Positions 23,284 to 45,726 of a DNA stretch of 52,091 nt are shown piece after piece. The stretch comes from Arthrobacter sp. H35-D1 (GTDB lineage: Bacteria; Actinomycetota; Actinomycetes; Actinomycetales; Micrococcaceae). The stretch lies in contig NZ_JASISP010000027.1 in NCBI RefSeq assembly GCF_030063185.1, positions 1 through 52,091 of the forward strand, in the 5' to 3' direction. Numbering within the stretch: position 1 is the first letter of the stretch; each line of letters opens with the position of its first letter. The notes under the pieces were generated by a model. The model saw only the letters and a program-made list of their open reading frames with translations. It ran no database searches and was not told where the DNA came from. Position numbers and translations under genes: made by a program.

Positions 23284-23967
23284 CTAGATGGCGCCGGTTC
23301 CGCCTGCCGCGGCTCCGAAAAGTGGTGCCAGCGCCTGCCAGCGGGCGGTCTGGCAGCTGTCGGTCCGTTTGAAGGCCGCGCTGACTGCACGCCCCTTGAA
23401 CGTACCGGTGACAACGGCCACTTGCGGGCCGTCGAAGACATCCATGCACTGCTGCGGCGGGCCCGGAACGGGGAAGAAGATACCTTCGCCGTATCGCTCC
23501 AACGCTGCCATGGCCGCCGCGGGCTGCGGGACCGTCGATTCCGGCCCGGGGGTGCCGTTGGCGGCCACCAAGCGGAACACCTGCGGCTGGGCGCCGGGAG
23601 ACGGCGTCACGGTGATGGAAAGGTCAATTTCGTTGACGCTCGACTCCGGACCGCTGGATGGGGAACCACCCCCGGATGGAGAAACACCGTTGGACGGGGA
23701 AGCCCCGCTGGATGGGGAACCACCCCCGGATGGGAAAACGCTGTTGGGCGGTGACACGGCGGGCTCCTTCGGCTGTGTGGTGCGGGGGGAAGCTCCGGGG
23801 CCTTGTGGCACTTCGGGCGCGGGGGCGCAGGCCGCCAGCCCTGCCAGCAGGGCGGTGCAAGCCAAGGAAGCTGCACCGACTCGGAACGGGGACGTTGCGC
23901 GGGGGGTTGCTCCGGCGCGTGCGGCGGGGCTGAATACCTCCGGGGCCCAAAATCGTCCCAAATTCAC
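23284..23967 (-). CDS. Lipoprotein with Ser/Gly/Pro-rich repeat linker
   Basis: About 227 residues from a GTG at 23967, chosen because AGGAGGCG lies directly before it; the reading frame is open much further upstream but that part is antisense to the GH13 gene. A signal sequence ends in a lipobox (LAGLAAC). Next comes a linker of repeated SPS(G/N)G units (GVSPSGGGSPSSG), which is also visible as direct repeats in the DNA at about 23650-23745. A small C-terminal globular part has two cysteines (QQCMDV, DSCQTARW) that could form a disulfide. This looks like a surface lipoprotein of unknown function, convergent with the protease gene. Confidence 0.75.
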   Translation of the reverse strand: MNLGRFWAPEVFSPAARAGATPRATSPFRVGAASLACTALLAGLAACAPAPEVPQGPGASPRTTQPKEPAVSPPNSVFPSGGGSPSSGASPSNGVSPSGGGSPSSGPESSVNEIDLSITVTPSPGAQPQVFRLVAANGTPGPESTVPQPAAAMAALERYGEGIFFPVPGPPQQCMDVFDGPQVAVVTGTFKGRAVSAAFKRTDSCQTARWQALAPLFGAAAGGTGAI

Positions 23968-25761: not shown

Positions 25762-25782
25762 CCCAGCACTGCCCCCCACCCG

Positions 25783-25864
25783 ACGCTCCTGCACGTTCGG
25801 GGGCCTCTTTCCCAACGCTCCTGCATGTTCGGGGCACACTTTCCCAACGCTCCTGCACAGTCCG
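25783..25864 (+). repeat. Tandem copies of a short dispersed repeat (ACGCTCCTGCA family)
   Basis: Three direct copies start at 25783, 25815 and 25847, about 32 bases apart: ACGCTCCTGCACGTTCGGGG, ACGCTCCTGCATGTTCGGGG and a shorter ACGCTCCTGCACAGTCCG. The intervening bases are also similar (CTTTCCCA). Inverted copies lie on the other side of the DUF559 gene at 26981-27032. Confidence 0.7.
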
Positions 25865-25952
25865 TCGCCGCCCCCACGGCCGCGACGGACATCGGCGGGG
25901 CGCCTGTGGATAACTTCTGCGGGCGAGCGTCGATCGGGACCACAATGTCTTC

Positions 25953-26980: not shown

Positions 26981-27032
26981 CCCGAAAGTGCAGGATGGTC
27001 GCCCGCAACGCCCCCGAAAGTGCAGGAGCGTC
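26981..27032 (-). repeat. Inverted copies of the dispersed short repeat
   Basis: Two copies in inverted orientation to those at 25.8 kb: CCCGAAAGTGCAGGATGG at about 26981 and CCCCCGAAAGTGCAGGAGCG at about 27011. They lie directly downstream of ino1 (stop at 27056) and may act at its 3' end. Confidence 0.65.
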
Positions 27033-27055
27033 GGTGGTGGGGTTGGGGCGCGAGC

Positions 27056-30872: not shown

Positions 30873-31212
30873 CTATGAGGAGGGCGAGTCGTCAGGGTCC
30901 ACGGGATACGTGATGTTGGTTCCATCCACGACGGCGAACGAGGTCAAGGTGTGTGGTTTGGCTGACTTCTCCGTCATGATGTCCAGCGCCTTGACTCTGC
31001 GAACCACCAACGCGTCACCGGCGTCGGCAAACTCCGGTGTCTGCATGTAGTCTGCACAGCCCTTGAACGAAGCGTTGCGCCATGCCCCCGTTCACACTGT
31101 CCTTGTGGACGTGCCGGAGTCCGCCAACCGACATCTTGATGCCGTGGGCTCTCAGCAAAGCGATGGACTCGTCGATGGGATGTGTCGAATGGCCAACGGT
31201 GAAGACGGTGAT
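30873..31212 (-). pseudogene. DUF488 family gene remnant with two deletions and a frameshift
   Basis: Pieces of a DUF488 protein are in the right order: the N-terminus ITVFTVGHSTHPIDESIALL, then GGLRHVHKDSVNGG, then after a one-base shift WRNASFKG and DYMQTPEF, then DALVVRRVKALDIM and the C-terminus EKSAKPHTLTSFAVVDGTN. About 40 residues are missing before GGLRH and about 40 before DALVV, compared with what I know of the family. There is no clear start codon. The stop is TAG at 30873-30875. The gene would have been divergent from pyruvate oxidase, so its promoter region overlaps the conserved leader copy at 31.27 kb. Confidence 0.75.
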
Positions 31213-31266
31213 GTCCGGCTTTTCCCCACATTGGCCGTCCACGCCGCACGGAGCCACAACATTTCC

Positions 31267-31381
31267 TTGACCGTTTGCCACGATGTGGCTATCGTCAAAA
31301 TTAGCTGCTGCAAGCGGCACATTCGCCCCGGCCCCGGCTGTGCTGCCCAAGGATTTGGCAGTGCGTAAGGGGCTTTCCATG
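31267..31381 (+). promoter_or_regulatory. Conserved promoter and structured leader, copy A (pyruvate oxidase)
   Basis: -35 TTGACC at 31267 and -10 TATCGT at 31290 with a 17-base spacer. The leader then has GCCCCGGCCCCGGC, a hairpin GUGCUGCC / GGCAGUGC (eight pairs with two wobbles), GGGGC that can pair with GCCCC, and CCATGCATCA at the end. Roughly 125 bases align with copy B on the minus strand at 42913-43028. The ATG at 31379 opens a 58-codon frame ending at 31555, 13 bases inside the pyruvate oxidase gene. Promoter and repeat are seen directly; the regulatory role is inferred. Confidence 0.75.
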
Positions 31382-31542
31382 CATCAACTGCAGTTGACTG
31401 GTGATCCGACCTGCGTCCCTGCGCACACCCTTCGTTGCCGACCGGTATCCAACCTTGCCTGTTACAGCCTTGCCTGGAACTGCGGTGGCAGGATTTTCAC
31501 GACTGCCGCCCGAAATGTAATCCGAATTGAAAGTGGTGCGGG

Positions 31543-33384
31543 ATGGAAACGGTAAGCGACTTCGTAATCCAGCGGATCCGGGAATGGGGAGTCAGCCGCG
31601 TATTCGCATTTCCAGGGGACGGGATTGGCGAGTTCGACGGCGCGCTCGGCAAGGCCCAGCGCGATGGCGACGGGTTGAAGTATGTCCGTCCCACCCATGA
31701 GGAGATCTGTTCCCTGATGGCCACCGCGCACGCCAAGTTCACCGGCGAGGTCGGTGTGTGCATTGCCACGTCGAGCCCGGGGGCCTTTCACCTGTTGAAC
31801 GGGCTCTACGACGCCAAGATGGACAACCAGCCTGTCGTTGCCATCATTGGGCAGCAGGGGCTGCCATCATTGGGGACGTTCACGCAGCAGGAAAGCAACC
31901 TTGAGCGGACCTTGTCCGACGTGGCCGTGTACGTGCAGACCATCGTTTCGCCGGAACAGGCCCAGGCTGTGGTAGACACTGCTTTCCGCACTGCCCGGGT
32001 GCGACTTGGTCCGGCCGTGGTCATTCTTCCCCACGACGTCCAAGGCATGAAGATGAAGGAGCTTTCTCCTGCCAACTGGGTGTCGCGTTCGAGCGCTGTG
32101 GCTCCTTCGATTTCCATCGTTCCCCCTGAGAGCGAGATCGTGAAGGCGGCGGCCATCATCAACGCCGGCGCCAAGGTGGCGTTCTTGGTTGGACATGGCA
32201 CCAACGGTGCCACCGACGAGGTCCTCGAAGCGGCACGACTCTGTGGTGCGGGCCTGATCACAACGCTTCGAGCCAAGCAGGTGGTGCCCTCGGACATTCC
32301 GCACCACAGCCAGCAACTGGGCCTGCTGGGCACCCTTCCAAGCATGCACCAAATGAAAGATTGCGACACGCTTGTGTTTCTGGGAACCAACTATCCCTAC
32401 AGCCAATTCCTGCCTCCGAGCGGGCAGGCTCGGGCAATCCAGGTCGATCTGAAGCCGGAGCAAATGGGGTTGCGCTACCCCACCGAGTTGAACCTCTGGG
32501 GAGATGTGAAGGCAACATTGATTGCTGTCATCCCGCACCTGGACGCGAAGACGGATCTCTCGTGGCAGGAAAAAGTTGCGGAGGAGATGGTCGAGTGGGA
32601 GAGCGAGATGGAAGTCCAGGCGATGCTGGTCTACGACGACGGCGTCAACCCGCGGCGCGTTTACCATGAACTGAACAAGCGTCTTCCACCCCAGGCAATT
32701 GTCACCGCGGACGCCGGCAGCACAGCCGATTGGTACGGGCACCACGTTCGTTTCCGCCGTGGCATGACCGGGGATCTTTCCGGACGGCTCGCGACCATGC
32801 TGGCGGCGATGCCGTATGCAGTGGCAGCAAAGTTTGCCCATCCGGACCGGTCGGTCATCTGCACGATCGGAGACGGGGCATTCCAGATGCTGGGGATGAA
32901 CGAACTCATCACCATCAAGAAGTACATGAAGGAATGGGACAATCCGCAACTGATCATCATGGTCCTGCACAACAATGACCTGGCCCAAGTGTCTTGGGAG
33001 ATGCGCACCGAGGATGCGAACCCGGTGTGGGAGACCTCCCAAGATGTGGAATCCATCGACTACGCCGGGTGGGCGGAGCTGCTCGGCTTCCAAGGCATCC
33101 GTGTCAAGCACGACGACGACGTGGCGGCTGCATGGGATGCGGCCTTCGCCCACCGTGGCATCACACTCATCGATGCGTACACGAGCAGGAGCGTCCCGCC
33201 GCTGCCTCCGCACATCACTGCAGAGTTCGCCAAGAACACTGGTGAAGTCCTCTTGAAGGGGGACCCCTTTGAGCTCGGTGTTGTCCGTGATTCTGCCGAG
33301 GCTCTCGTGTCCGAGGGCATCGAACGCGTCAAGGCAAAACTCCACATCGGCAACGAAGACAAGGACGAATACAAGGACAAGTAG
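31543..33384 (+). CDS. Thiamine-diphosphate pyruvate oxidase-type enzyme (YdaP/PoxB-like)
   Basis: A 613-residue ThDP enzyme. The N-terminal PYR domain has FAFPGDGIGEF and the catalytic glutamate region RPTHEE (residues 49-54); the central Rossmann-like domain has FLVGHGTNG; the C-terminal PP domain has the ThDP motif GDG (443-445) ending near HNNDLAQVSWEM. It resembles PoxB/YdaP enzymes that oxidise pyruvate to acetate and CO2, giving electrons to quinone or oxygen. The start ATG at 31543 has only GCGGG upstream; it overlaps the leader frame from 31379, so expression may be coupled to it. The last 15 residues are highly charged. It is followed by a molybdo-oxidoreductase gene. Confidence 0.87.
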   Translation: METVSDFVIQRIREWGVSRVFAFPGDGIGEFDGALGKAQRDGDGLKYVRPTHEEICSLMATAHAKFTGEVGVCIATSSPGAFHLLNGLYDAKMDNQPVVAIIGQQGLPSLGTFTQQESNLERTLSDVAVYVQTIVSPEQAQAVVDTAFRTARVRLGPAVVILPHDVQGMKMKELSPANWVSRSSAVAPSISIVPPESEIVKAAAIINAGAKVAFLVGHGTNGATDEVLEAARLCGAGLITTLRAKQVVPSDIPHHSQQLGLLGTLPSMHQMKDCDTLVFLGTNYPYSQFLPPSGQARAIQVDLKPEQMGLRYPTELNLWGDVKATLIAVIPHLDAKTDLSWQEKVAEEMVEWESEMEVQAMLVYDDGVNPRRVYHELNKRLPPQAIVTADAGSTADWYGHHVRFRRGMTGDLSGRLATMLAAMPYAVAAKFAHPDRSVICTIGDGAFQMLGMNELITIKKYMKEWDNPQLIIMVLHNNDLAQVSWEMRTEDANPVWETSQDVESIDYAGWAELLGFQGIRVKHDDDVAAAWDAAFAHRGITLIDAYTSRSVPPLPPHITAEFAKNTGEVLLKGDPFELGVVRDSAEALVSEGIERVKAKLHIGNEDKDEYKDK

Positions 33385-33507
33385 CGAACGGCGTGTATCC
33401 GAGGTCCCGAGCGGACCCACGGCATCCGGACCCCTCCCATTCGGCGGTTTGCGTGCCGTCCAGCGCAGAGAACAGCTGATTCGCGGTTCCAGTGCCCCAG
33501 AACTCCC

Positions 33508-33534
33508 GTGGAACGGGTGGAACGGGTGGAACGG
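33508..33534 (+). repeat. Three tandem copies of GTGGAACGG
   Basis: Three exact 9-bp copies begin at 33508, 33517 and 33526, 40 bases before the molybdo-oxidoreductase start. They may be a simple slippage repeat or a regulator site. Confidence 0.6.
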
Positions 33535-33576
33535 GACGTCGGTCAACGGCGGCGAGAGGAAAAGATTGGAATCGGC

Positions 33577-34812
33577 ATGGCTGAATTCTTTCCGTGGTGG
33601 GTGGGTGCCACTTATTTCCTGAACCTCTTCTTCCTGTTGCTGCTGGCACGAAGCGGACTGGAGGCGCTCTCCACCTTTCCCAAGCTGTGTTGGCATGACG
33701 ACCGCCCTCCCGGGCGGGAGTGGGTGCGGTTTTCCAAGAAGATGTACAGTGTGGATTCCCTCAAGCCGTGGTCGTCATCGGATGAAGTGGAGGCCTGGTC
33801 TCCGTTCATCACCCTTCCCGGGAAGAAGAACCTTGGGCTGGGCAGGCACTGGCACTGGCACTGGCACTTCATGAGCATCCACTTCTGGGTCCTGACGGGG
33901 GTTGTCTACCTTGCGATGGTTTTCGCCACAGGATACTGGCACTATTTGGTCCCAACGCACTGGTCGATCATCCCGGATTCCACCAACTCCGTCGGCACCT
34001 ATCTCCATTTCCAGATTCCGGCGATGATTCCGGGCGAACCGTTCGCGCCAGCCCCAAAGCTGGCTCATTTCACGGTGCTGGTCCTGCTCCTCGTGCTCCA
34101 TGTGGTGATTACCTGGTTATCGTTGCGTTATCGGCGACGGACGCACCGTCTGCTGGGAATCATGGTCAACCCTTTTGAGCGGGCCGTGTCAAAGTCATTT
34201 CTCTCGCGTGAAAGCTTCAGGCCCAAGGACATTTCGCCCTACTTCAGGGTCAATGGCTATCCTCCAACCAGCGCGAACTATAAGCAGCTGGCTGCAGACG
34301 AATTTCGGGACTACCAATTGTCGATCGGCGGCCTTGTTGCGAACCCGATTTCCCTTTCCTTGGAAGAGTTGCGCCGGGTTGGCGAGCAGACAAAAATCAC
34401 CAAGCACAATTGCATCCAGGGCTGGACAGCCGTCGCCCAATGGGGCGGGGTGCCGCTGGCTCGCATAATTGAGCTTGTCGAACCGCAGGAGACGGCCAAG
34501 CTCATCGTGTTCTATGCCTTTGATGACAAGGGCCTGACAAGAGGGGAAGGCCTGTACGGGTTCTTCTACGGCACAATCCCCGTGCATTTGGCCAAGAATC
34601 CGCAATCGATCCTAGTTCTGGAGATGAACGGGGAATCCCTGCCCATTGAACACGGCGCACCCGTGCGGGTCCGTCTTGAAACACAGCTTGGTTTCAAAAT
34701 GGTCAAGTGGGTGTGCGCCATTGAATTTGTTGAGGACTACAGGGACATCGGCCTGGGCCAGGGCGGCTGGCGAGAGGACCAACAATTTTATGCCAACGCC
34801 GCGGGCATTTAG
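33577..34812 (+). CDS. Membrane-anchored molybdopterin (sulfite oxidase-type) oxidoreductase with heme-b-like domain
   Basis: About 411 residues from the ATG at 33577 (GGAA upstream). The N-terminal half has about four membrane helices and the unusual histidine run RHWHWHWHFMSIHFW, plus GYWHYLVP and HVVITWLSL, which look like b-type heme ligands as in cytochrome b561-type or NarI-like subunits. The C-terminal half is a sulfite oxidase/MsrP-type molybdopterin domain with SLEELRRVGEQ, the cofactor cysteine in HNCIQGWTAVAQW, YGFFYGTIPVHLAKNP, and FKMVKWV. The fusion would pass electrons between a cytoplasmic or external substrate and quinone. The substrate is unknown. It probably shares a transcript with pyruvate oxidase. 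Confidence 0.82.
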   Translation: MAEFFPWWVGATYFLNLFFLLLLARSGLEALSTFPKLCWHDDRPPGREWVRFSKKMYSVDSLKPWSSSDEVEAWSPFITLPGKKNLGLGRHWHWHWHFMSIHFWVLTGVVYLAMVFATGYWHYLVPTHWSIIPDSTNSVGTYLHFQIPAMIPGEPFAPAPKLAHFTVLVLLLVLHVVITWLSLRYRRRTHRLLGIMVNPFERAVSKSFLSRESFRPKDISPYFRVNGYPPTSANYKQLAADEFRDYQLSIGGLVANPISLSLEELRRVGEQTKITKHNCIQGWTAVAQWGGVPLARIIELVEPQETAKLIVFYAFDDKGLTRGEGLYGFFYGTIPVHLAKNPQSILVLEMNGESLPIEHGAPVRVRLETQLGFKMVKWVCAIEFVEDYRDIGLGQGGWREDQQFYANAAGI

Positions 34813-34878
34813 ATCCTCGTCCAGGGCGCCGGTTTCGGCACTCGGGGCGGAACACAATGGAATCGAGGATGAATCACA

Positions 34879-36651
34879 ATGGTGAACGCGAAGGAAAGCT
34901 GGCAGTTCCCACCGCATGTACTACGGGAGTATGCACTGATCGCCGACGGTGAACGTGGAATCCTCGTTGGGCCCAAGGGCGACTTTGTCTGGATGTGTTT
35001 TCCTCGCTGGGACTCGGATGCGATCTTTTCCTCCCTGATCGGCGGCCACGGCAGCTACGCCATCACGCCTCGCGACAGGTTTGTCTGGGGCGGCTATTAC
35101 GAGGAGGGCTCGCTCATCTGGCACAGCAGGTGGGTCACCGAGAGCGGCATTGTCGAATGCCGCGAGGCGTTGGCGTTTCCTGCAGAACCCGGCCATGCGG
35201 TGGTCTTGCGGCGAGTCGTGGCGGTCGACGGCGACGCCCACGTCAGGGTCGTCTTGGACCCCAGGGCGGGGTTTGGCCACCATGGAGTCCGCTCGCTGGC
35301 GCGCGAGGATGGGGTCTGGACCGGACGCACCGATTCCCTGCGAGTGCGGTGGCTGGGTGCCGACGACGCCCGCCCGGCAGCCGGAAGCGGAGCCCCGGCC
35401 TTGGCGATGGATATGACGCTGCGCGCTGGTGAACATCATGACTTCGTGCTGGAACTCGGCGAAGGACCGCTGCCTGAAGAGCTCATTGTTCCGGACGCTG
35501 CCTGGGAAGCTACTGCCTCTGCGTGGCAGGCGGCGGTTCCAGAGTCCTCCGAGACGATCGCTCCCCGCGATTCCCGCCATGCCTACGCAGTTCTGCGCGG
35601 ATTGACCAGCACCGGCGGCGGCATGGTCGCTGCGGCGACCATGAGTTTGCCGGAGCGGGCAAGACAGGGCCGCAACTACGACTACAGGTATGTGTGGATC
35701 CGGGACCAGTGCTTCACCGGGGAAGCCGTCGCAGCCGCCGGCCCGTACCCGCTGCTCGATGATGCTGTCCGGTTCGTGTCGGCGCGGCTGCTGGAAGACG
35801 GCCCCAACCTGAAGCCGGCCTACACCACCCTCGGCGGCCCCGTCCCAGGGCAACGGTTGCTCAAACTGCCTGGCTATCCCGGTGGATCAGATATCGCCGG
35901 CAACCATGTCAACGCCCAATTCCAGCTTGATGCGTTGGGTGAGTCTCTGCTGCTGCTTGCCGCCGCAGCCAGCCACGACCACCTTGATGCCGATGGCTGG
36001 CGCGCAGCCCTGGCTGCTGCCGACGCCATCGCTGCCCGCTGGCAGGACGCGGAGGCGGGAATTTGGGAACTCGAAGACAAGAACTGGACGGAAAGCCGGC
36101 TGATCTGTGTGGCAGGGCTGCGTGCGATCAGCAAACGTGGGGCACCCAGCGGACGCATCGGCGACTGGCTGGCATTGGCCGAGAGGATTCTTGCCGAGAC
36201 TGCAGCCAGCTCAACGCATACCAGTGGACGCTGGCAGCGGGCGCCCGACGACGAGCGAAACGATTCCGCGCTGTTGTTGCCCCCGATCCGCGGAGGGGTT
36301 GCGGCGGATGACCCCCGCACCCTGGCGACACTGCACAGCGTGGAGGAGGAGCTCGGTGCCGACAGCTACCTCTACCGGTTCCGTCAGAATGCGGGCCCCC
36401 TCGAGGGCGCCGAGGGAGCCTTCCTGCTCTGCGGATTCACCATGGCGCTGGCCCAACACCAGCAAGGCCGCGAAGTCGCGGCGACGCGTTGGTTTGAACG
36501 AAACCGCGCCGCGTGCGGTCCCCCTGGCTTGTACTCGGAAGAATTCGATGTGACCCAGCGCCAGCTGCGGGGCAATCTGCCACAGGCCTTCGTCCATGCG
36601 CTCATGCTGGAGTGCTCGGCCAGGCTTGCCAAGCCTTGGGAGACGCACTAG
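34879..36651 (+). CDS. GH15 glucoamylase/trehalase-like protein
   Basis: A 590-residue protein with the N-terminal beta-sandwich domain (LREYALIADGERGILVG, then FVWMCFPRWDS) and the (alpha/alpha)6 catalytic domain (YDYRYVWIRDQCF, NAQFQLDALGE, GIWELEDKNWTESRL). The usual general-acid position falls in IWELED, and a second acidic pair occurs in LYSEEFD. The common GIWE then H-W motif is altered here (ELEDKNW), so substrate preference may differ from trehalase-type homologues. There is no signal peptide. The start ATG at 34879 lies 67 bases after the molybdo-oxidoreductase stop. Confidence 0.85.
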   Translation: MVNAKESWQFPPHVLREYALIADGERGILVGPKGDFVWMCFPRWDSDAIFSSLIGGHGSYAITPRDRFVWGGYYEEGSLIWHSRWVTESGIVECREALAFPAEPGHAVVLRRVVAVDGDAHVRVVLDPRAGFGHHGVRSLAREDGVWTGRTDSLRVRWLGADDARPAAGSGAPALAMDMTLRAGEHHDFVLELGEGPLPEELIVPDAAWEATASAWQAAVPESSETIAPRDSRHAYAVLRGLTSTGGGMVAAATMSLPERARQGRNYDYRYVWIRDQCFTGEAVAAAGPYPLLDDAVRFVSARLLEDGPNLKPAYTTLGGPVPGQRLLKLPGYPGGSDIAGNHVNAQFQLDALGESLLLLAAAASHDHLDADGWRAALAAADAIAARWQDAEAGIWELEDKNWTESRLICVAGLRAISKRGAPSGRIGDWLALAERILAETAASSTHTSGRWQRAPDDERNDSALLLPPIRGGVAADDPRTLATLHSVEEELGADSYLYRFRQNAGPLEGAEGAFLLCGFTMALAQHQQGREVAATRWFERNRAACGPPGLYSEEFDVTQRQLRGNLPQAFVHALMLECSARLAKPWETH

Positions 36652-37186
36652 AAAACCCGGGTATGGACACTGCCGGAGGTCCACACCGCCGTCAGTGTCT
36701 CATGCTGGACTCAGCGCGCAAGGCGGCGCTGACGGAGGGTGCTTGCCAGTCCTGCGGCAACGGCTGTGGGGCTGCCGCCGAGCATGGGTCGGTCGCGGGT
36801 GATGGCAGTGACGGTCCGCTGGTCGGCCCCCGGGCCGAACCCGCGCATCAGCCGGGCCCTGACATGCCCAATTCGTTCGTTCGGTGTCTTCGCGCCGGGC
36901 ACCGGACTGTTGGCACCGCCGGGAGCTGCCCCGGCAATGGAATCCTCCGCGCACCGAGGCAGGCGACCTCAGTCAACGGTTTGAGCGCGTCCGGCCTGAT
37001 CTCAAGAAATGGTGCGAAGACGGACGTGAAAGCTACGTTGATCCACACACCGATCGGACCGAACGCCCGGGAAGTCGTCCGCCCGTTGCCGGCACTGGCT
37101 CCGGTATTCACAACAGTCTGCGGGTGGTTATGGAATGCCTGCTTTCCGCCGGCCCTCTGCCGACATGTGGGAACGTTTGGGGATCT
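36652..37186. other. Gene-poor gap with possible gene remnant
   Basis: About 535 bases between convergent genes. On the minus strand two neighbouring frames (about 36848-37111 with SRAFGPIGVWINVAFTSVF, and about 36711-36902 with HVRARLMRGFGPGADQ) read like parts of one decayed protein, but I do not recognise a family. No promoter or strong hairpin was found. Confidence 0.35.
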
Positions 37187-38358
37187 TCAAGTTCCGGAAT
37201 CATCGCGTTGGCCGCCGTGACCCTCAACTGCACGGCCAATCCGTTCAGCCCATCCTTGGAGATCCTCCTGGTATTCAGGCACGGCCGCGTCGATGAGGTC
37301 TGCCAGCATGCCTGCCAGGCGGCCGGGCACTTGGGCGGCGCCGGAACCGTACTGCCAGATCTCTCCGACGGCCAAGTCCAGAAAATCTGCGTAGCTGTAT
37401 TGGGGGATCGTCAGCCGAACCACTGCGTCCGCGTCGGCCCATCGGCCGCCGGGAAGCTGGCAGATGGCCAGTCGCCGCAAGAGGTCGTGCAGGACATCAA
37501 GGCACTGGCACGCCGTTGTGGGGTCGTCGATTGCCGGTGACAACGCCCGCTCGGCAATGTCGACAAGCTGGCGAAAGCTAAAAGCAAGGTCCTGTTCAGA
37601 CGTTCGTTCAGTGTCCTGGGCAACGTGTGCCAGGATCTCCACATCGAGTGAACTTTCGTGCCGGGCTGCGTCCGTTCCCGTGTCCCCTTGGTACTGCTGG
37701 ACACTGAACAATGGCGCAGCGGCCGGCACAAAATCGTCCACTCGCACCGTCAGCGCCAACAGGCACCCCGATTCCGCTGCGACTTGCACAAGGCGTGCTT
37801 CGTTGACGGCAACAACCACACTGGCGCCAGGGGCAACCATGCCCCCGCGAAACTGCTTGGCCCCCGTTGAGGGAGGCGCCGTCCCCGGCGTCCCCTCGCC
37901 GTAGCGTCGTTCCACAGTGTGCCGCGCTTCAATTCCTAGATCTGTCGCAATCGTTGCCACCCGGATCAGATGGGATATCCGTGCCAAGCAGCCGATGAAA
38001 AAGGCAACGCTGGCAAGCACGAAGACAAAGGCCACACTCACCGCAATCCGCGGCACGAAAGGAGGCTCGGTGTCAGCACCCGGCACTGACCGTTGCACCA
38101 TCATCGAAAAGACGAGTCCGGTGAAGGAGATCATGGCAGTCACGATGGAGGAAAGCAGGCTGCGAGCGCCAGCGGGCTCGCCTGGGTAAAAGAACTCGGC
38201 GCCTTCGTTCGTGTCCAAGGCCCGATCCACCGTGATCAGTACCAGCGCCAAACGATCGATGCGAGGACACAGAGCGCCGGCACCAACCAAAATGTGGAAC
38301 GGATTTTGCCCCGCACGCGTTCCACGGAGGCGAAAGGCCCCGACTGCCTGCTGCCCAT
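37187..38358 (-). pseudogene. DUF2254 membrane protein gene, frameshifted and internally deleted
   Basis: The likely start is the ATG at 38358, encoding MGSRQSGPFASVERVRGKIR, an N-terminal TM segment (STFWLVPALCVLAS), and a stop (WRWY then TGA). The rest of the family, starting ALVLITVDRALDTNEG, continues in another frame, so a frameshift lies near 38250. Further on, ISFTGLVFSMMV joins directly to PFVPRIAVSVAFVF, so about 45 residues containing the usual LQLASSQFSPR segment are missing. The C-terminal cytosolic part (FRQLVDIAERALSPAIDDP) is intact. Function of DUF2254 is unknown. Confidence 0.75.
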
Positions 38359-38439
38359 GGCTAGTTCCGCTCCAGCCTGGGTGGGTCGGGGCCAGCCGCC
38401 ACCGCCTGGAAATGGCCGTTTCCGGGGTGGGTGGTGTTC

Positions 38440-39357
38440 CTAGGCATAGGGTTCGATCCCCCAGCGTGCACTGTGTCCCTGGCCCGGATCGAGCGTGAGC
38501 AAGCCGTCCCCGGAGTTGAAGGCGTTCGGCGCACACGTCATGGGTTCGACGCCGAGGCCGGTGCGTCGGCGTTCGGGCTGCGGCAAGGAATCGCCGGTAA
38601 AGACTTCAAGGTAGGGGTATCCCTCATCGGCCCACAGCGCCACCGCGGGCCCACTGGGCAGGTGCAACCTGACCCGCGCACGTCCATCTGGGCCGCGGTC
38701 CAGATCCGTGTAGGCCACATCGATTTTTCGGGCTCCGAGCAGTTCTTCGGTGCGCAAGTCATAGTGGGTGCCTTGGACCGGTTCCCGCCCGGTGGGAATG
38801 CCCACGGCATCGACGGGAAGGTAGAGCGAACCGGGAACCCGTGCATGTGCCGTGTCAATCGTCGGAGTTCCAACGCTGAGGTAGGGGTGTGCGCCGGTGC
38901 CGTAGGGACAAGGACCCTCGCCGAGATTCGTTGCGGTGGTGTGGACGCTCAATCCAGTGTCGTCCAGGCTGTAGTCGATCCGGCATTCGAGCACCCATGG
39001 CCAGCCCGGGCACGGGTACAGGATGTGCCCTAAGGAGACGTGGGCGCCGTCGTGCTCAAGCAGCTGCCAGGATGCCCATCGGGTGAGACCGTGGATGGCG
39101 CCGCTGAACGCCGGTTCGGTGAGATCGAGTTGGTGTTCAATGCCGTCCCAACCATATTTTCCATCCTTGACGCGGTTGGGCCACGGAATCAGCGAGTGCC
39201 CGCGCGCGCCGGTGCAGCTTTGGGTCTCGGGGTAACCGTCGATGACGGGGCGTGCACCTGCCATGTACGACCTCAGCCCTGCGCCCACTTCTGTGACGAC
39301 TACAACCTGCTCGCCGTGGCGTAGCTCGATCTGGCGTCCTGATGGTGCCGTGTACAT
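38440..39357 (-). CDS. Aldose 1-epimerase family protein
   Basis: A 305-residue cytoplasmic mutarotase of the galactose mutarotase-like fold. Active-site features are the histidine in IHGLTRW, the second histidine in GTGAHPYLSV, and the glutamate in GLGVEPMTC. The start ATG at 39357 has GAGGAG upstream. It lies at the 3' end of the minus-strand set with the GMC oxidoreductase, consistent with supplying the correct sugar anomer for oxidation, by inference. Confidence 0.9.
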   Translation of the reverse strand: MYTAPSGRQIELRHGEQVVVVTEVGAGLRSYMAGARPVIDGYPETQSCTGARGHSLIPWPNRVKDGKYGWDGIEHQLDLTEPAFSGAIHGLTRWASWQLLEHDGAHVSLGHILYPCPGWPWVLECRIDYSLDDTGLSVHTTATNLGEGPCPYGTGAHPYLSVGTPTIDTAHARVPGSLYLPVDAVGIPTGREPVQGTHYDLRTEELLGARKIDVAYTDLDRGPDGRARVRLHLPSGPAVALWADEGYPYLEVFTGDSLPQPERRRTGLGVEPMTCAPNAFNSGDGLLTLDPGQGHSARWGIEPYA

Positions 39358-39383
39358 TGCTGCTCCTCGCTGATTGTGGGCTC

Positions 39384-39934
39384 CTACCGCACCCGGAATT
39401 GTTCGACGTCACTGCTGCGCAAGTCCAGTCCGTTGCCCGGGGCCGAGCTGTCAGGGGTGATCGTGCCTCCCTGCGGGTCCAAGGTGCCGTCAAAGAACAG
39501 CGTTTCGATCCGCACCTGGTCGTGGAACCACTCAAGGTGGCGCAAGTTGGGGGTTGCTGCAGCGACATGGGCGTGGAGGCGGGGCCTCCGCAGCGGGAGT
39601 CGTCGATCTGAAGACAATTCACGGCCTGCGCATCGCACATGCGTCGGAAATGGACCAGATCGAACCCGTATTCTCCGGCCGCGACGTCGGCGGAGACGGA
39701 ATTGCGAATATCCCGCAACCCGTCCAAGTCGTTCGAGGACACCGGCTCCTCGAACCAACGCACGTCCTGGGCGGCGGCTCCATAGGTCCAGCCCATGCCG
39801 ATGGTGACGCCAGAGACGATGCGCACCAAGACCATGGTGGTTGAATCCCACGCGGTGGTGCCAGCTGATTCAGGAGCGTCCGTGGGAACAGTGAACACGC
39901 TAACATCGACAGTGTCGATGGCCGGATCTTTCAT
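39384..39934 (-). pseudogene. Enolase-superfamily (mandelate racemase-like) gene remnant
   Basis: The ATG at 39934 overlaps the GMC oxidoreductase stop (ATGA). The frame encodes an N-terminal piece (VSVFTVPTDAPES then TTMVLVRI), jumps to the barrel (QDVRWFEEPVSSNDLDGL, then FRRMCDAQAVNCLQIDDSRCGG), then shifts frame and jumps again to LHAHVAAATPNLRHLEWFHD and the normal C-terminus (TPDSSAPGNGLDLR). More than 150 residues, including the catalytic KxK region, are absent. The end is TAG at 39384. It cannot be active. Confidence 0.8.
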
Positions 39935-41577
39935 GACTGCCGCACTTGCCCTGCACGGCTGCCGGTGGTCATCCTGTCTGCAGCGCGGGCTGCGATGGCC
40001 ATGATGGTCAGCGCAGGGTTCGCGCTGCCCTCGGTGGGCAACACGCTTCCGTCGGCGATGTAAAGGTTCGGCACGGCGAAGCTGCGGCAGTCGCCGTCGA
40101 CCACGCCGCTGTGTTCGTCGGATCCCATCCGCGCCCCGCCCACCAGGTGGGCGTAGCGGTTGATGGTGATCACCTCATCCGCCCCCGCCGCTTGCAGGAT
40201 ATTCTCCATCACGGATTGGGCGGCACTCATCAGCTGCCGGTCGTTCTCGCACCGGGAATAGTTGAAATGTGCTACCGGCAGGCCATGGCGGTCCTTCTCG
40301 TCGGATAAGAAGACTCGGTTCTCCGGCAGGGGAAGGAACTCACACAGTGCTCCCAGACAGGACCAGTGTACGTAGTCGCTCATGTACTGGCGCAACCCGG
40401 CACCCCAGTGGCCTTGCGCGGCCACATGCTCGGCCCAAGTGATCGGCAGCGGCGACACCGTTTGAATCGAAAAGCCTCGTTTGTAGCTCTTCGTCGGGTC
40501 CGTCTCGTAAAAATCTTCGGTGCTGACCTCCGGAGGCGGCCCCTTCCACATGCGAACCTCGGCGTCGAATCGTCCGGCGGTCTGCGGTGCTCCCTGGACC
40601 ATCAGGTAGCGGCCCACCAGGTCGAAGTCGTTGCACAGGCCTTCAGGGAACCGGGTGGATGTCGAGTTGAGGAGCAGCCGCGGCGTCTCGATGGAGTATC
40701 CGGCAACCACAACCATCCTGGCCCGCTGGATGCGCTCGCGCCCACGCAGGTTGTAGTGCACACCGGTGGCTTTGCCGGTGTGCCCGTCCACTTCGATTCG
40801 GGTCACCATCGAGTCTGCGCGGACCTCGGCCCCGTGCGCCAACGCATCCGGGATGTGGGTGATCAGCGGAGATGCCTTCGCGTTCACTTTGCAGCCCTGC
40901 AAACAAAAACCTCGGTAGATGCAGTGCGGCCGGTTGCCGAAGCGTCCGTTGCTGATGGCCACAGGCCCCACTTTGGCGGTGACGCCGCAGGCAAGGGCGC
41001 CGCGCAGGAACATGTCCCCGTTGCCGGACACGGGATGGGGACGCTGCGGGTATGAGTGGGGGTCCCCCCACGGCCAGTTGTCACCTGCCACCGGAAGTTC
41101 TTCTTCGATGTCGACGTAATAGTTTTTGAGATCCTTATATTCCAGCGGCCAGTCGGCGCCGACTCCGTCGGTGCTGTGGATGCGAAAGTCGCTCGGGTGG
41201 AACCGAGGCACGTAGCCGGCGTAGTGGATCATTGAGCCGCCCACTCCCCTGCCGGAGTTGTTGGATCCCAGCGGAACCGGGTCCTGGCCACCTATCACCC
41301 GCGGCTCCGTCCAGTACAAGTGGTGGGAACCTGCTTCATCGGAAACCCAATCTTTTTCCGGATCCCAGAACGGGCCGGCATCCATCGCCACAACGCTCCA
41401 GCCGGCCCTGGCCAGCCGCTGCGCCATCGTTGAGCCACCCGCGCCGCACCCCACAATGACGACATCCACTTCCTCGTTGTCGCCGAAGCGGCGCATGTCA
41501 TCGCGGAGACCATGGTTGATGCCCGGTCCGGCCGGAAGCAGCCACGCTGATTCGTTGCGATCGCGGACGCGGTTCAT
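39931..41577 (-). CDS. GMC family oxidoreductase, gluconate 2-dehydrogenase flavoprotein-like
   Basis: A 549-residue FAD enzyme. The ADP-binding motif is VVIVGCGAGGSTMAQRLA (about residues 39-56), with HLYWTEPRVIGG and GRGVGGSMIHYAGY following as in GMC family members. The C-terminus has the catalytic histidine region HLVGGARMG and YIADGSVLPT. Its partner gene (subunit 3) overlaps its start by four bases, which matches gluconate 2-dehydrogenase-type enzymes that oxidise sugar or polyol substrates and pass electrons to a cytochrome. No third cytochrome subunit is found. The ATG at 41577 has AAGGGAA upstream; further upstream frame is antisense or part of the neighbour. Confidence 0.9.
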   Translation of the reverse strand: MNRVRDRNESAWLLPAGPGINHGLRDDMRRFGDNEEVDVVIVGCGAGGSTMAQRLARAGWSVVAMDAGPFWDPEKDWVSDEAGSHHLYWTEPRVIGGQDPVPLGSNNSGRGVGGSMIHYAGYVPRFHPSDFRIHSTDGVGADWPLEYKDLKNYYVDIEEELPVAGDNWPWGDPHSYPQRPHPVSGNGDMFLRGALACGVTAKVGPVAISNGRFGNRPHCIYRGFCLQGCKVNAKASPLITHIPDALAHGAEVRADSMVTRIEVDGHTGKATGVHYNLRGRERIQRARMVVVAGYSIETPRLLLNSTSTRFPEGLCNDFDLVGRYLMVQGAPQTAGRFDAEVRMWKGPPPEVSTEDFYETDPTKSYKRGFSIQTVSPLPITWAEHVAAQGHWGAGLRQYMSDYVHWSCLGALCEFLPLPENRVFLSDEKDRHGLPVAHFNYSRCENDRQLMSAAQSVMENILQAAGADEVITINRYAHLVGGARMGSDEHSGVVDGDCRSFAVPNLYIADGSVLPTEGSANPALTIMAIAARAADRMTTGSRAGQVRQS

Positions 41578-42215
41578 GAGGTTCCCTTGCCGAGCGGGTC
41601 CTGTCCGGGATGGGCGTCGGTGACCTCGAACGACTCCAGTCTGTTGACGCCCATGTTCTTGTAGCCGCGCGGATAGGCGGGGCCGGCGAACCCTATCTCC
41701 TCCCACGCCAAGGGGTGGGAGTAGAAGGCCGTGCAGGCGTAGCGGGTCCACAGGCTCCATATCCGGGCGGCCGGGATGCCATGCCAATCCTCGGATCCCT
41801 TGTCCTGCACCGCCTGCAGAATGGCTGTCTGCTGTTCCCACGCAGCGTCGGCGAAGCTGCAACCGCTGTGTGCCATGGCATCTTCGTCGAGGGCGGCCAG
41901 GGAGTCCCGCCATGATTGGCCGTCGGGGGCCATACCCTCGTAGTGCCAACCGTCCGTCTGATCCTCAGCCAGACGAGCATCCACCATGTTCACCACGGGC
42001 ACCTTTGTCGGTTCCCGTTGGTCAAGCAACTGGTCGCAGACGGCAGTGGCGGTCGCCTCCTCTGCAGCGTCAAAAAAGCGAATATCCGGCGGCATGCCCA
42101 GACGCGAGACGACGACGGCTTTTGTAGTCTCATCCCAATGCTTTGACTGGGCCATCACATCGAAACCGGGGAATCGGCCGCCACCGGCATTTGAGCCCAG
42201 TGGAAGGCTGCTCAT
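41574..42215 (-). CDS. Gluconate 2-dehydrogenase subunit 3 family protein
   Basis: About 213 residues. The family pattern is seen in FFDAAEEATATAVCDQLLDQ, VNMVDARLAEDQTDGWHYE, and WSLWTRYACTAFYSHPLAWEEIGF with GPAYPRGY. Such subunits assist the GMC flavoprotein; in this family they are often needed for assembly or export. No twin-arginine signal is visible in this copy. The ATG at 42215 overlaps the stop of the upstream membrane protein gene by four bases, and its stop overlaps the GMC start. Confidence 0.87.
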   Translation of the reverse strand: MSSLPLGSNAGGGRFPGFDVMAQSKHWDETTKAVVVSRLGMPPDIRFFDAAEEATATAVCDQLLDQREPTKVPVVNMVDARLAEDQTDGWHYEGMAPDGQSWRDSLAALDEDAMAHSGCSFADAAWEQQTAILQAVQDKGSEDWHGIPAARIWSLWTRYACTAFYSHPLAWEEIGFAGPAYPRGYKNMGVNRLESFEVTDAHPGQDPLGKGTS

Positions 42216-42688
42216 TTTTCCCGCCGCAGTATTGCAGCCAAGAGACCCATGCCGCCCACCATGGTCACCAGCAGCGGAGCCATCAGTGGCGGGCCCATTT
42301 CCATGTTGTAGCGAAAATTTCTGAAGCCGCCGGGCTTTTGGTGGATTCCGCGTGCGTGCAGGTAAGTTCCCTGAACGCCGTTGGCAACGATAATCCCGGA
42401 GACCAATGGCAGGACGGTCTTCGCCAGCTTGTGGCTGAACACCCCGGAGATGCCCGCGGCTGCCCCGACGGGACCGAGTGCCACGGGAACCCACATCCAC
42501 TTGTTGCTGAAGCTTGCGCTGTCGTGTTCGAAGTAGATCTCGGCCGCGGTGACGAGGGCGCCAATGCCGCTCAGGCCTGCCAGACTGCGTTCGAAGCGCC
42601 CGGTCCTGACGTTTTTCACCATTCGGTCGATGCCGTAAGCCGCAATTGCAACTTCCTTGGCAGCAACATGTGGTGGGCGCTTAAACAT
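42212..42688 (-). CDS. Hypothetical membrane protein, first gene of the GMC operon
   Basis: A 158-residue protein with about four hydrophobic helices (SLAGLSGIGALVTAAEIYF, MWVPVALGPVGAAAGISG, TVLPLVSGIIVANGVQG, LMAPLLVTMVGGMGLLA). I recognise no characterised family, although similar proteins sit next to GMC/subunit 3 pairs in other actinobacteria. It could be a membrane anchor or quinone-facing partner. The ATG at 42688 has GGAG two bases and GGAGG eleven bases upstream. An in-frame open stretch continues upstream to 42823. The conserved promoter/leader copy B lies 225 bases upstream. Confidence 0.7.
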   Translation of the reverse strand: MFKRPPHVAAKEVAIAAYGIDRMVKNVRTGRFERSLAGLSGIGALVTAAEIYFEHDSASFSNKWMWVPVALGPVGAAAGISGVFSHKLAKTVLPLVSGIIVANGVQGTYLHARGIHQKPGGFRNFRYNMEMGPPLMAPLLVTMVGGMGLLAAILRREK

Positions 42689-42912
42689 GTCTCCTCTTTC
42701 CTCCGGCACTGGCAAAACGACAAGCTGGCCGCGTTCGTCGTCGAATCGCGCTGCAAGTCGCTGGGATCTGGCCGGTCCACCATAAAAAAGAACAGTGACC
42801 GGTCCGTTCGATCCTGCTTCCAAATGGAGCTCGGATTTCCGCGCAGGCTCTGCTGCAAATGGCGTGCACTGGGAGGTCCGCCGAACGGATCAACTGCAGG
42901 CAATCGCTGATG

Positions 42913-43028
42913 CATGGAAGACCCCTTTCCACAGTGCCGAAGCCGTGGGCAACACCGCCGGGGCTGGGGCAAATGCACCGCTTGCAAGACCTAATTTTGA
43001 CCTTAGTCACATCCCGGCAAACGGTCAA
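42913..43028 (-). promoter_or_regulatory. Conserved promoter and structured leader, copy B (GMC operon)
   Basis: On the minus strand: -35 TTGACC (43028-43023), a 17-base spacer, -10 TAAGGT (43005-43000), then CAAAATTAG as in copy A. The leader has TTGCAAGCGG, GCCCCAGCCCCGGC, a short hairpin TGCC/GGCA, GGGGTC, and CCATGCATCA. By eye about three quarters of 125 positions match copy A. The leader ATG at 42915 opens a frame to 42616 that overlaps the start of the structural gene at 42688. The promoter is seen directly; function is inferred. Confidence 0.75.
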
Positions 43029-43096
43029 GGGATCGCTTTGAGCCACGAAGTTGATCCATGACATAGGCTCGTGGAATGGGTGTCTGTCTCATTGTT

Positions 43097-43113
43097 GCCC
43101 TCTCGAAGAGGGC
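43097..43113. terminator. Perfect hairpin downstream of the hypothetical gene at 43237
   Basis: GCCCTCT and AGAGGGC form a 7-bp stem around CGA, in the gap between copy B and the 3' end of the minus-strand gene at 43237. It has no T tract and may end that transcript. The rest of the gap 43029-43236 holds nothing I can assign. Confidence 0.4.
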
Positions 43114-43236
43114 TAACGTTGAAGTACGACGGCGGCTGCAACGCCACCACCGGCACCAGGGCAAGCGGCACTCCGGCAAGTGCCTGGCACGATGCCGTGT
43201 TTGAGGTTTGCGGGTGGGACTACCGGGTTGCACGGA

Positions 43237-43758
43237 TCAATGCGTGCCGCGGCCTTCCGCCTTGCCTCTCGCCTTGCCCCGGACCCAACCAATGCAAACG
43301 GATGCTGCGACCAGGCCTGCCCCAATGCCGGCAAACCAGGGCCATGGCACTGCGTTCCCCGGCCCCCGGTAGGTGGTGCGCCCTGTTTGACGTGCCCACG
43401 CAACCGGGTCCGGTGGGGCCGTGGATTGTTTCTCCGGGACTTCCAAGTACGTCTCGCCGTCGTCTTCCGTGTACATGATGAGGCCGGGCCTGTCTCCGTC
43501 TGGAACAAGCCTGCCCGAAGCGTCGCGGCCGGTCATCGTATGCATGACGGTGCCTCGGCGATTCCAGCTGACATGAATTCTGACGGACCCGTCCTCCTGT
43601 TTGTCGACCTCGGTGACAATGTCCTTTGCAGGCGCTCCCATGCCACGGAGCCTGTCCTGGTACGAGCCCACCAACATGGCCAGCCTCGTTTCGGTCCAAT
43701 CGTCCGGGCCGAAGTGGACGGAGATTTCCACTGGATCGTTGCTGGAACCCATCATCAC
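43237..43758 (-). CDS. Hypothetical protein with C-terminal membrane anchor
   Basis: About 173 residues. The N-terminal part is a soluble alpha/beta-like region (VEISVHFGPDDWTETRLAML, then DIVTEVDKQEDGSVRIHV), and a single hydrophobic helix lies near the C-terminus (WPWFAGIGAGLVAASVCIGW) followed by a basic tail (RGKARGKAEGRG), so the soluble part is probably outside the cytoplasm or the helix is a tail anchor. The start ATG (first of three) at 43758 has GGAG six bases upstream. No family is recognised. Confidence 0.6.
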   Translation of the reverse strand: MMMGSSNDPVEISVHFGPDDWTETRLAMLVGSYQDRLRGMGAPAKDIVTEVDKQEDGSVRIHVSWNRRGTVMHTMTGRDASGRLVPDGDRPGLIMYTEDDGETYLEVPEKQSTAPPDPVAWARQTGRTTYRGPGNAVPWPWFAGIGAGLVAASVCIGWVRGKARGKAEGRGTH

Positions 43759-43948
43759 CGTCTCCGGATCTATTCAGTGGGCGTCATTGCCCAAGGGCTG
43801 GGGGATTCCAACACCGTTCAGGCCGCCTCTTCCTCGCGCCCGTCATGCTGGAATGGCCTTTCCTGCAAGCCGTCCACCGTCTTTTCTTCAACGGTACGAT
43901 GCGCTTGTGGCTGTGGCAATGAGGCTGCTCCGACCGGCCGAATTTTCC

Positions 43949-44047
43949 TTGACAAAGTGGCGTGTATCACTCTATAACTGGCATATAGCAGTTGCTGCCC
44001 CGGACCCGGTAGCGCCTTGAGCGAGCTACATCTGAGGGGTCCACATG
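43949..44047 (+). promoter_or_regulatory. Conserved promoter and structured leader, copy C (small membrane protein)
   Basis: -35 TTGACA at 43949 and -10 TATAAC at 43973 with an 18-base spacer, preceded by TTTTCC as in copy A. The leader is shorter: TGCCCCGGACCCGG, a perfect hairpin GTAGC/GCTAC, GAGGGGTCC, and CACATGCATC. GGACCC and GGGTCC can pair. The primary sequence is more diverged than A or B, but the order of elements is the same and the hairpin bases change together. The ATG at 44045 opens a frame to 44512 that overlaps the gene starting at 44253. Confidence 0.65.
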
Positions 44048-44252
44048 CATCTATGGCCAGACGAGCATAGGGCCCGTGGCACCGTGGACATCAGTTCCAC
44101 CCATCGCTTCATGAGCACTCCATCGAATGCGGATTCAGCTGTCTTTGTCGTGACACCGCGTGAACGTGCGATCCGCTACTCCTTCACCTCCAACGCCACG
44201 CCGCAAGCACGGCTGGCTTCGCAGCACCACAACCGAATGGAATGTGATCCAA

Positions 44253-44423
44253 ATGAACGTACTAGTCATCGCCATAGCAGTGATTGCAATCATCCTGCTC
44301 TTCGTTGGAGGCTTCTCCACCGCCGTTCATTGGCTTTTGTGGGTGGGGATCGTCCTGTTGATCATCGCTGCCATTGTGTGGCTGCTCCGTTTCATTGGCG
44401 GGCGCAAGAGTTCCTCGGTCTAA
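44253..44423 (+). CDS. Small hydrophobic membrane protein
   Basis: A 56-residue protein with two membrane helices (LVIAIAVIAIILLFVGGF and LLWVGIVLLIIAAIVWLL) and a short basic tail (RFIGGRK). It resembles the small hydrophobic proteins that are abundant and stress-induced in actinobacteria and Firmicutes, whose function is unknown. I chose the ATG at 44253, since the longer frame upstream (from 44160) has no hydrophobic pattern. It lies 208 bases after the leader ATG of copy C. Confidence 0.7.
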   Translation: MNVLVIAIAVIAIILLFVGGFSTAVHWLLWVGIVLLIIAAIVWLLRFIGGRKSSSV

Positions 44424-44487
44424 CAAGCCGCCATTCAAGGCTGTCCCCAAGCCGAAGAAGCCCGGTGGTTGCGTTTGCCGGAACCCT

Positions 44488-44781: not shown

Positions 44782-44837
44782 CGTCGGCTCCTGCCGCAGG
44801 CTACGCTGCTGACTTCCGACTGGTGCCCGGCACCGTC

Positions 44838-45485
44838 ATGGACGCGGAACTTCCTGCCCTGTTGGTGCGCGATTGCGCACAGTCGCTGTCAGTGACAAGT
44901 GCTGGGATCGTTTCGATGGTTGAAGGCAGACCCATCGGGACGCTCGCCGCCACCGACGGGCCTGCCAGGGTCCTTGAGGAGCTTCAATTTACGCTCGGGG
45001 AGGGGCCATGCATTGACTCCGCGGAACTGGGACGGCCGGTATTGCAGCCCCAGTTGGAACTTACCGCGCCCTCACGCTGGCCAGGATTCGCGGTCGGTGC
45101 CCTTGCAGCTGGTGTCAAAGCGGTATTCGCGTTTCCATTGCAGATCGGCGAAATTCTGCTGGGCGTGATGGATTTGTACCGCGATGCATAGGGAGACCTC
45201 GACAGCGGCGACCTGGAAGCGGCATTGGCTTTTGGCGATGCTGCCGTGGCCGTTCTGCTCTACTTGCAGGCCGGCGCGGGCCCCGGCGCCGTTCATCCGG
45301 CAGTAGCCGCCAGCGTGGCTGAGAAAACCGAGGTACATCAAGCCACGGGCATGATCGCGGGACAGCTGAGGATATCGCCGGCACAGGCGTTGGCCGTGCT
45401 GCGCGCCCGCTCCCTTGCCTCTGAGCGACCGATTCTGGCCGTGTCTCGCGACGTCCTTGCACGCATTCTTGATCTTAGCGATTGA
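44838..45485 (+). pseudogene. GAF-ANTAR regulator gene with premature stop
   Basis: The GAF part (DCAQSLSVTSAGIVSMVEG, then LGEGPCIDSAELGRPV, and GVMDLYRDA) ends at an in-frame TAG at 45189. The same frame then continues without a shift as GDLDSGDLEAALAFGDAAV and the ANTAR RNA-binding helix bundle HQATGMIAGQLRISPAQAL to a stop at 45485. In homologues these parts are one protein that binds RNA hairpins to cause antitermination. One nonsense change therefore separates sensor and output; a sequencing error could look the same. The ATG at 44838 is the likely start. Confidence 0.75.
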
Positions 45486-45594: not shown

Positions 45595-45726
45595 GTGTCC
45601 ACGGTTCGACTGTTGCAGGAACGTTCCCAGAGGGAACAATCGGTCTTGGCCGAGCACCTACCAAGGGCACTCAACAACAGAGCAGTGATCGAACAGGCCA
45701 AAGGGATGTTGGCCGGAAATAGCAGT
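45595..45726 (+). pseudogene. Second ANTAR-domain fragment
   Basis: A stretch of about 43 codons reads VRLLQERSQREQSVLAEHLP then IEQAKGMLAGNSSL, the coiled-coil and first ANTAR helix of a second GAF-ANTAR protein. The GAF part before it and the rest of ANTAR after it are not recognisable; after about 45726 the sequence is unrelated. The remaining gap 45486-45793 has nothing else I can assign. Confidence 0.6.

Follow-up and report, generated by a model that had tools for sequence, protein, structure and literature searches.

What is the function of a promoter and leader present three times in one island? The question is raised by the window, i.e., the whole stretch of 52,091 nucleotides (nt) analysed here from Arthrobacter sp. 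H35-D1 (contig NZ_JASISP010000027.1 of assembly GCF_030063185.1), in which three copies of such an element, A, B and C, lie at positions 31267-31381 (+), 43028-42913 (-) and 43949-44047 (+), respectively. All three were confirmed by reading the letters and are located where the first-pass annotation of this DNA had placed them. The answer favoured here, with a probability of about 0.47, is that the element is a translational leader cassette masking the Shine-Dalgarno sequence (SD), whose trigger is most likely a GAF-ANTAR protein encoded nearby.

The largest inverted repeat of the window is A versus B (81% over 108 nt), in line with the alignment initially claimed. When A was used as BLAST query against its own genome (G000), only A and B were above noise (E 1.5e-26 for B; E 0.024 for the next of the 16 matches). 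Copy C gave no match with A in this search, and R1, a sequence-only model of five A/B copies made without C, was silent on it up to E=10. C indeed keeps the order of the elements, and its common ground with A and B is restricted to this order and to the core TGCCCCGGACCCGG...GGGG...ATG. Searched as a gapped pattern in 395 genomes of the family (including 23 of the genus), the core has 4 occurrences (window C, two copies of G020 and one of G016), and the reversed pattern used as control has none. C is counted as a member on the basis of this rare pattern.

The core of A (31324-31381, +) contains a first stem, P1 (CGCC-[CCGGCCCC]-GGCT, 31324-31339), hairpin arms extending to 31364, the SD AAGGGG (31367-31372) and an ATG (31379-31381). 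In B (-), P1 is TGCC-[CCAGCCCC]-GGCG (42971-42956), the SD is AAAGGGG (42928-42922) and the ATG is at 42915-42913. In C (+), P1 is TGCC-[CCGGACCC]-GGTA (43996-44011), with the SD GAGGGG at 44034-44039 and the ATG at 44045-44047. None of the 4227 families of Rfam 15 matches anywhere in the window, in agreement with the initial statement that the leader could not be matched to a known class. In evalue mode, loci L001 and L002 gave two matches (E 4.3 and 4.8), far under the gathering score and off the leader.

The promoter of A, TTGACC-17-TATCGT (31267-31295, +), was flagged by a consensus scan (1 found versus 0.2 expected in shuffles). Those of B (TTGACC-17-TAAGGT, i.e., TTGACC at 43028-43023 and TAAGGT at 43005-43000, -) and C (TTGACA-18-TATAAC, i.e., TTGACA at 43949-43954 and TATAAC at 43973-43978, +) are recognized by eye and were left unflagged; among the three promoters announced, A is thus the one that the scan supports. 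A shared promoter and operator, acting at the DNA level, might explain the set, the leader being an inherited 5' untranslated region with a good SD. The A-type promoter can be aligned across 8 pox/GMC copies of 4 genomes (pox, pyruvate oxidase), and promoter and spacer GATGTG.CTA are among the best conserved A/B parts in these four genomes. However, the C copies and those of a further type, D, have other promoter sequences and other distances from the -10 to the core, while keeping the same core and ATG (by eye), and a pattern free of any promoter finds them. DNA-level control is consequently considered unlikely, although it is the strongest of the rivals. A dyad TTGACC-N20-GGTCAA extends over the -35 and -10 (31267-31300 and 43028-42995); it is perfect in B, has one mismatch in A and is partly retained in orthologues. 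It is a possible operator.

The total is 16 copies in 5 of the 395 family genomes, belonging to two genera only, two weak copies being taken by context; 5 is a lower bound, since unread weak matches may be real and the search of the family, more strictly filtered, stopped at E 3e-4. The element is therefore present in other genomes, a point on which the first-pass annotation had made its own refutation depend. The own genome has A, B and C; G007 has A, B and D; G016 and G020 have A, B, C and D; G116 has D and E. The D copies precede a gene that we take to be STAS-like (an impression, not search-based). A DNA search with B gave matches in 4 of the 395 genomes. Among the 23 genus genomes, R1 detected two strong copies in each of G000, G007, G016 and G020, convergent and 11.6-13.9 kb apart, and weakly the D copies of G020 and G016 (E 6e-4 and 0.001), both unseen by the model. 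R2, a core model of nine copies, gave 13 strong matches in the genus, nine by construction and four corresponding to the G016 copies. In the family, R2 adds G116 (E 1.8e-9, outside the model) and three matches (L112-L114, E 3.8e-5 to 1.6e-4) which, like eight weak R1/R2 matches in other genus genomes (L078-L084, L095), were judged from the letters, without gene calls, to be noise. The two weak copies accepted are D of G007 (G007:C1:1468935, E 0.001), before a STAS-like gene and about 95 kb from the island, and E of G116 (G116:C77:18193, E 0.0018), before a STAS-like start; both have the full layout. Neither pox nor GMC has a match on the G116 contig. With B as query, plasmids yielded nothing, and a contig scan of other organisms returned 14 places, all chance-like.

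A mobile element was considered and rejected: the A/B sites are syntenic in four genomes, and C and D have only the core in common. In G016 and G020, the A and B copies are each other's closest (tree support 0.995); in G000 and G007 they group by locus (support 0.77 and 0.80). The A/B likeness within one lineage probably reflects homogenisation or separate duplication. Recent duplication, initially named as the possible source of the likeness, or recent exchange thus accounts for a part of it.

Which structure is carried by the core? The nine-copy alignment (A12) excludes Gb, all C types, E, and the A and B copies of G016, which have the same core as those of G020. On this alignment, unconstrained RNAalifold gives P1 (UGCC/GGCA, with a C-rich loop), then P2 (GUGUU/GRYAC), then the ATG. 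The P1 and P2 cells are paired at 93%, versus at most 71% when slid. Of 13 sequences, 12 form at least 3 of the 4 P1 pairs (3 in A, 4 in both B and C; best of three loop lengths, without null); in copy E, P1 is TGCC-[CCGGACCC]-GGCG. An outer stem between C-block and SD can also be drawn, and its registers differ between copies. The P1/P2 fold thus appears conserved, though it is not proven. It replaces the inner hairpin that had been regarded as preserved: the arms GTGCTGCC/GGCAGTGC are real in A, but the same arms are mismatched in B and the GTAGC/GCTAC of C is lost in the G020 orthologue (both by eye).

The upstream segment is complementary to the SD beyond chance. Over the 13 sequences, the duplex between P1 loop and SD has a mean energy of -10.7 kcal/mol, versus -5.6 with shuffled SD windows (sd 0.7, best of 300 sets -7.7), a contrast flattered, at the expense of the masking proposed, by the fact that shuffling the SD destroys GGGG. 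Loop and SD flank change in step by class, i.e., GGCCCC with GGGGCU in A/B and GGACCC with GGGUYC in C/D. A/B loops reach -10.5 kcal/mol with A/B SDs versus -9.7 with C SDs and -9.1 with D SDs, and C and D loops reach -10.1 to -12.7 with C/D SDs versus -7.8 and -8.0 with A/B SDs. In B and in the copies Ap and Bp, AUGCAUC or AUGUAUC is complementary to GGUGCAU or GGUAUGU just 5' of GCCCC (7 pairs by eye). This start-codon pairing in B-type copies is a possible extra masking stem.

The masking proposed would operate as follows. A sigma-70-like promoter would give an RNA with P1 and its 8-nt C-rich loop, P2, the SD and the AUG. The loop would pair with GGG(G) of the SD and its 3' flank and mask the start in the cell. 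This pairing might be a pseudoknot, P1 staying formed, or a nested stem that encloses P2 while P1 is open; release of the loop would permit ribosome loading. In D copies, the AUG opens the STAS-like gene. In A and B, it opens a short non-conserved open reading frame (ORF), the translation of which may keep pox and the DoxX/GMC genes open, via coupling or protection from termination. Most likely, the trigger would be the GAF-ANTAR protein, whose gene each genome has close to a copy. In SD-sequestering leaders and riboswitch expression platforms, an anti-SD lies upstream and the start codon is at the 3' edge. The element likewise has an upstream anti-SD segment and its start codon at the 3' edge; it differs from them by the leader ORF that separates it, in A and B, from the main genes.

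Why a GAF-ANTAR protein? In the window, a broken GAF-ANTAR gene (44823-45485, +; GAF 44823-45191, ANTAR 45192-45485) with an in-frame stop lies 0.8 kb past copy C. Its GAF and ANTAR parts are 68.5% and 63.9% identical, respectively, to an intact gene, the first of a tandem pair in G116. A second ANTAR remnant (45652-45720, +) covers the first 23 domain positions and is under the family cut-off. In each of the 5 carrier genomes, about 1 kb at most separates a copy from a GAF-ANTAR gene or a remnant of one. In G020 such a gene follows the STAS-like gene of D (ANTAR E 2.1e-14), and likewise in G016; in G007 it is convergent to the STAS-like gene, about 60 nt away; in G116 copies D and E flank the intact tandem pair. 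An ANTAR profile derived from 30 sequences of the genus detected an ANTAR gene in 11 of 30 fetched STAS-like loci (7 of the 26 non-D loci) versus 0 of 12 other loci. All 23 genus genomes have ANTAR domains, 1-5 per genome, thus the probability of meeting one by chance in a 3.3-kb stretch is estimated to be well under 1%.

The oxidising enzymes encoded after A and B, a conserved TTGCCCCGG.CCCGGCAGTG and the silence of Rfam could also suit a new class of metabolite riboswitch, sensing for example a product of pyruvate or sugar oxidation directly. This is improbable: the core is small, the STAS-like gene opened by D has a GAF-ANTAR gene as a close neighbour, and linkage to a protein regulator offers a simpler trigger than a metabolite.

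Copy A precedes, as initially stated, a pyruvate oxidase-type thiamine pyrophosphate (TPP) enzyme (pox, 31543-33384, +; Pfam TPP_enzyme N/M/C). Its orthologues in G007, G020 and G016 are 93-94% identical and also have the leader. The first gene after B is not the GMC operon itself but a DoxX-like membrane protein gene (42212-42688, -; one relative bears the name «DoxX family»), the orthologues of which are 84-85% identical and lie behind the B-type copies of G007, G020 and G016. It is followed by a gluconate 2-dehydrogenase subunit 3 ORF (41574-42500, -) and a GMC oxidoreductase ORF (39931-41949, -). The arrangement, with pox following A and the DoxX-like gene and GMC operon following B, is kept in G000, G007, G016 and G020; a leader common to several operons, as first supposed, is thus also conserved in place in other genomes.

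The leader ORF of A (31379-31555, +) has 58 codons and shows no peptide likeness to its counterparts. A conserved leader peptide for A and B was rejected, no likeness being found among the leader ORFs. Translation of a leader ORF might decide on the formation of a downstream terminator, i.e., transcription attenuation. A terminator-like site (42790-42809, -) of 6 pairs followed by TTTTTT does lie inside the B leader ORF, about 0.1 kb past its ATG; its significance is doubtful, as the scan of 42680-44260 gave 3 sites versus 1.4 expected in shuffles, two of them overlapping in the B leader ORF. In that stretch none is at the SD hairpin, and the scan of 31150-31560, i.e., the A leader, gave none. 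Attenuation is thus very improbable in the window leaders scanned.

The place of copy C, between the ORF at 43237-43758 and the ORF at 44422, is kept in G020 and G016. A small hydrophobic protein is encoded after it (44253-44424, +), with no Pfam family over the cut-off. The leader ORF of C is 49% identical to that of G020 over about 88 residues. A conserved leader peptide was nevertheless rejected, differences being even over codon positions (9/12/12 and 18/14/17 between G020 and G016; 23/30/27 between G000 and G020). The AUG of the D copies opens an ORF of 118 amino acids, with matches in 97 of the 395 family genomes (up to 7 per genome) and no matching Pfam family. This ORF shows a third-position excess in three comparisons (6/2/11, 15/18/39 and 27/21/44) and, judging from this pattern, is a real gene. 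The STAS-like gene opened by D is intact in G020, whereas in G016 (L109:19064-19407) it is disrupted near codon 91. In G116, copy E (L150:6300-7240) lies before a small membrane-protein gene, presumably DUF3040-like, 0.19 kb from the tandem GAF-ANTAR genes and divergent from them.

Nine leader ORFs were compared with the starts of STAS-like genes over their first nine residues. The ORF of E (MDHTLR) is closer to them than any of 20000 random draws and that of Ga (MNHMRRLLIS) has P 0.0008, while the other seven show no likeness (P 0.13 to 1.0). These comparisons hint that the cassette was copied together with the first codons of the STAS-like gene. They could also be read as decay: STAS-like genes would have been duplicated and then eroded down to their 5' ends, A, B, C and E, which persist by chance or as promoters only, with an RNA of no regulatory role there. 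The lack of coding constraint in the C ORF is in keeping with it. On the other side stand the seven ORFs without likeness, a full-length STAS-like profile which retrieved none of the leader ORFs (best E 0.055, for E), and the persistence of core, SD and ATG in contrast to the drop of likeness further downstream (by eye). Decay is judged unlikely, somewhat more so than DNA-level control.

Do other STAS-like leaders have a comparable structure? Among the 30 fetched STAS-like loci, 21 of the 26 non-D leaders were aligned (A10); L171 (too short upstream), L167 and L169 (near copies), and L164 and L180 (long insert) were left out. They have in common a five-pair hairpin with, mostly, an AGCAG-type hexaloop, of which 85.7% of the cells are paired versus 57.7% at the best slid position. 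The same helix is given by unconstrained RNAalifold. Its covariation is 0.547 versus 0.225 in shuffles (0 of 500 as high; this control leaves relatedness in), with 20 cells changed on both sides. AGCAG is at the loop in 17 of 25 readable non-D leaders. Further hexaloop hairpins 3' of it are found in 13 of the 21 versus 7.6 in shuffles (11 of 500 as high), and A1/G4 in 1. D- and B-type copies have GGCAGT or AGCAGT at the matching place, e.g., GGCCCC-AGCAGT-GTTGCC in the B-type copy of G020 versus GGCCC-AGCAGT-GCGCC in L162. Both groups of leaders also resemble each other by the homologues of the D gene downstream and by nearby GAF-ANTAR genes (the 7 of 26 loci above, L155-L180). They differ in that R3, a model of the 21 AGCAG leaders, does not pick out copies A-D in the islands: its match in B is the 15th of 24 (E 6.1), window A and C are unlisted, and at E<=1 the own genome yields nothing. 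With this negative result, a common descent of the two hairpins is not supported.

ANTAR-target RNAs are defined, in Mehta and Ramesh 2021 (PMC8164766), by dual stem-loops with hexanucleotide loops having A1 and G4, joined by a linker of 2-25 nt. The same paper reports cases in Arthrobacter, among which that of A. alpinus has the ribosome-binding site (RBS) in the second stem-loop. With reference to this definition, the element is similar by its two predicted stem-loops in a 5' leader over the RBS, its metabolic genes and the close GAF-ANTAR gene, and a linked ANTAR protein is present in the genome. It differs in that the P1 loop of copies A-D has 7-8 nt and the P2 loop about 10 nt, without A1/G4 hexaloops, and in that the consensus fold places P2 directly after P1, without the linker of 2-25 nt. 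Among the AGCAG leaders, A1 is found in 19 of 21 and G4 in 0 of 21. The element may thus work like an ANTAR-target RNA, with dual stems likely and ANTAR binding possible; it is not classed as one because of the unfit hexaloops and linker, despite RBS overlap and linkage.

A wider reading can be built on masking with a GAF-ANTAR trigger. The Micrococcaceae would possess a regulatory triad made up of a family of translational leaders, a GAF-ANTAR protein and a STAS-like protein. In the five carrier genomes, the AGCAG hairpin would have been rebuilt as the P1/P2 anti-SD switch. Starting from a STAS-like gene, the cassette would have been copied to operons for pyruvate and sugar oxidation, the translation of which would be set jointly by a single signal, with the ANTAR domain reading non-canonical loops. 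This triad, not found in the open-access literature searched, is regarded as doubtful, clearly more so than masking itself.

Several observations weigh against masking by the leader and its GAF-ANTAR trigger. (i) RNAalifold on four and six copies gives other folds, that of the six copies being the outer C-block/SD stem, and the single-sequence fold energies of the three window copies are no better than those of shuffles (z 0.00, 0.76 and 0.84). Gb breaks P1 and the C-class copies have no conserved P2. The first-pass annotation had expected many matches with significantly covarying pairs; besides the restriction to two genera, covariation in the nine copies is not clearly above shuffles by any measure, with one cell changed on both sides. 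(ii) P1 loops paired with the SDs of other copies average -9.6 kcal/mol, merely 1.1 weaker than with their own. (iii) The ANTAR linkage is partly due to shared descent, and the ANTAR gene beside the window copy is broken. (iv) The end of the leader ORF varies with respect to the next gene, from overlaps of 13 nt (A, with the pox start) and 73 nt (B) to gaps of about 24 nt (G020 pox), 37 nt (G020 DoxX) and 400 nt (G007 DoxX). (v) The small membrane protein after C, initially listed as a gene partner, is not conserved: it has no tblastn match in G020 or G016, and a weak match in G007 is off any copy. A terminator-like site, moreover, lies within the B leader ORF. The unconserved gene after C and this site weaken both the masking reading and the triad. 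The first interpretation, that of a co-regulated set with a leader RNA, is on the whole partly supported.

Two other repeats of the window must be mentioned. Three 32-nt tandem copies (25779-25874) overlap one arm of an inverted repeat of 62 nt, the other arm being 1.1 kb away (25772-25874 and 26981-27042), and a tandem repeat with an 18-nt period lies at 23651-23754 (four overlapping 50-nt register copies).

Actinobacterial ANTAR proteins are many and their validated RNA targets few, according to PMC8164766. If masking with a GAF-ANTAR trigger is true, the copies would provide the actinobacterial ANTAR field with a compact set of targets whose predicted switch is testable by base exchange. 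Moreover, a covariation-supported hairpin is offered before a widespread STAS-like gene without Pfam family. Masking, if true, would also show that a leader and its start codon can act as a regulatory cassette even though the protein behind them is lost.

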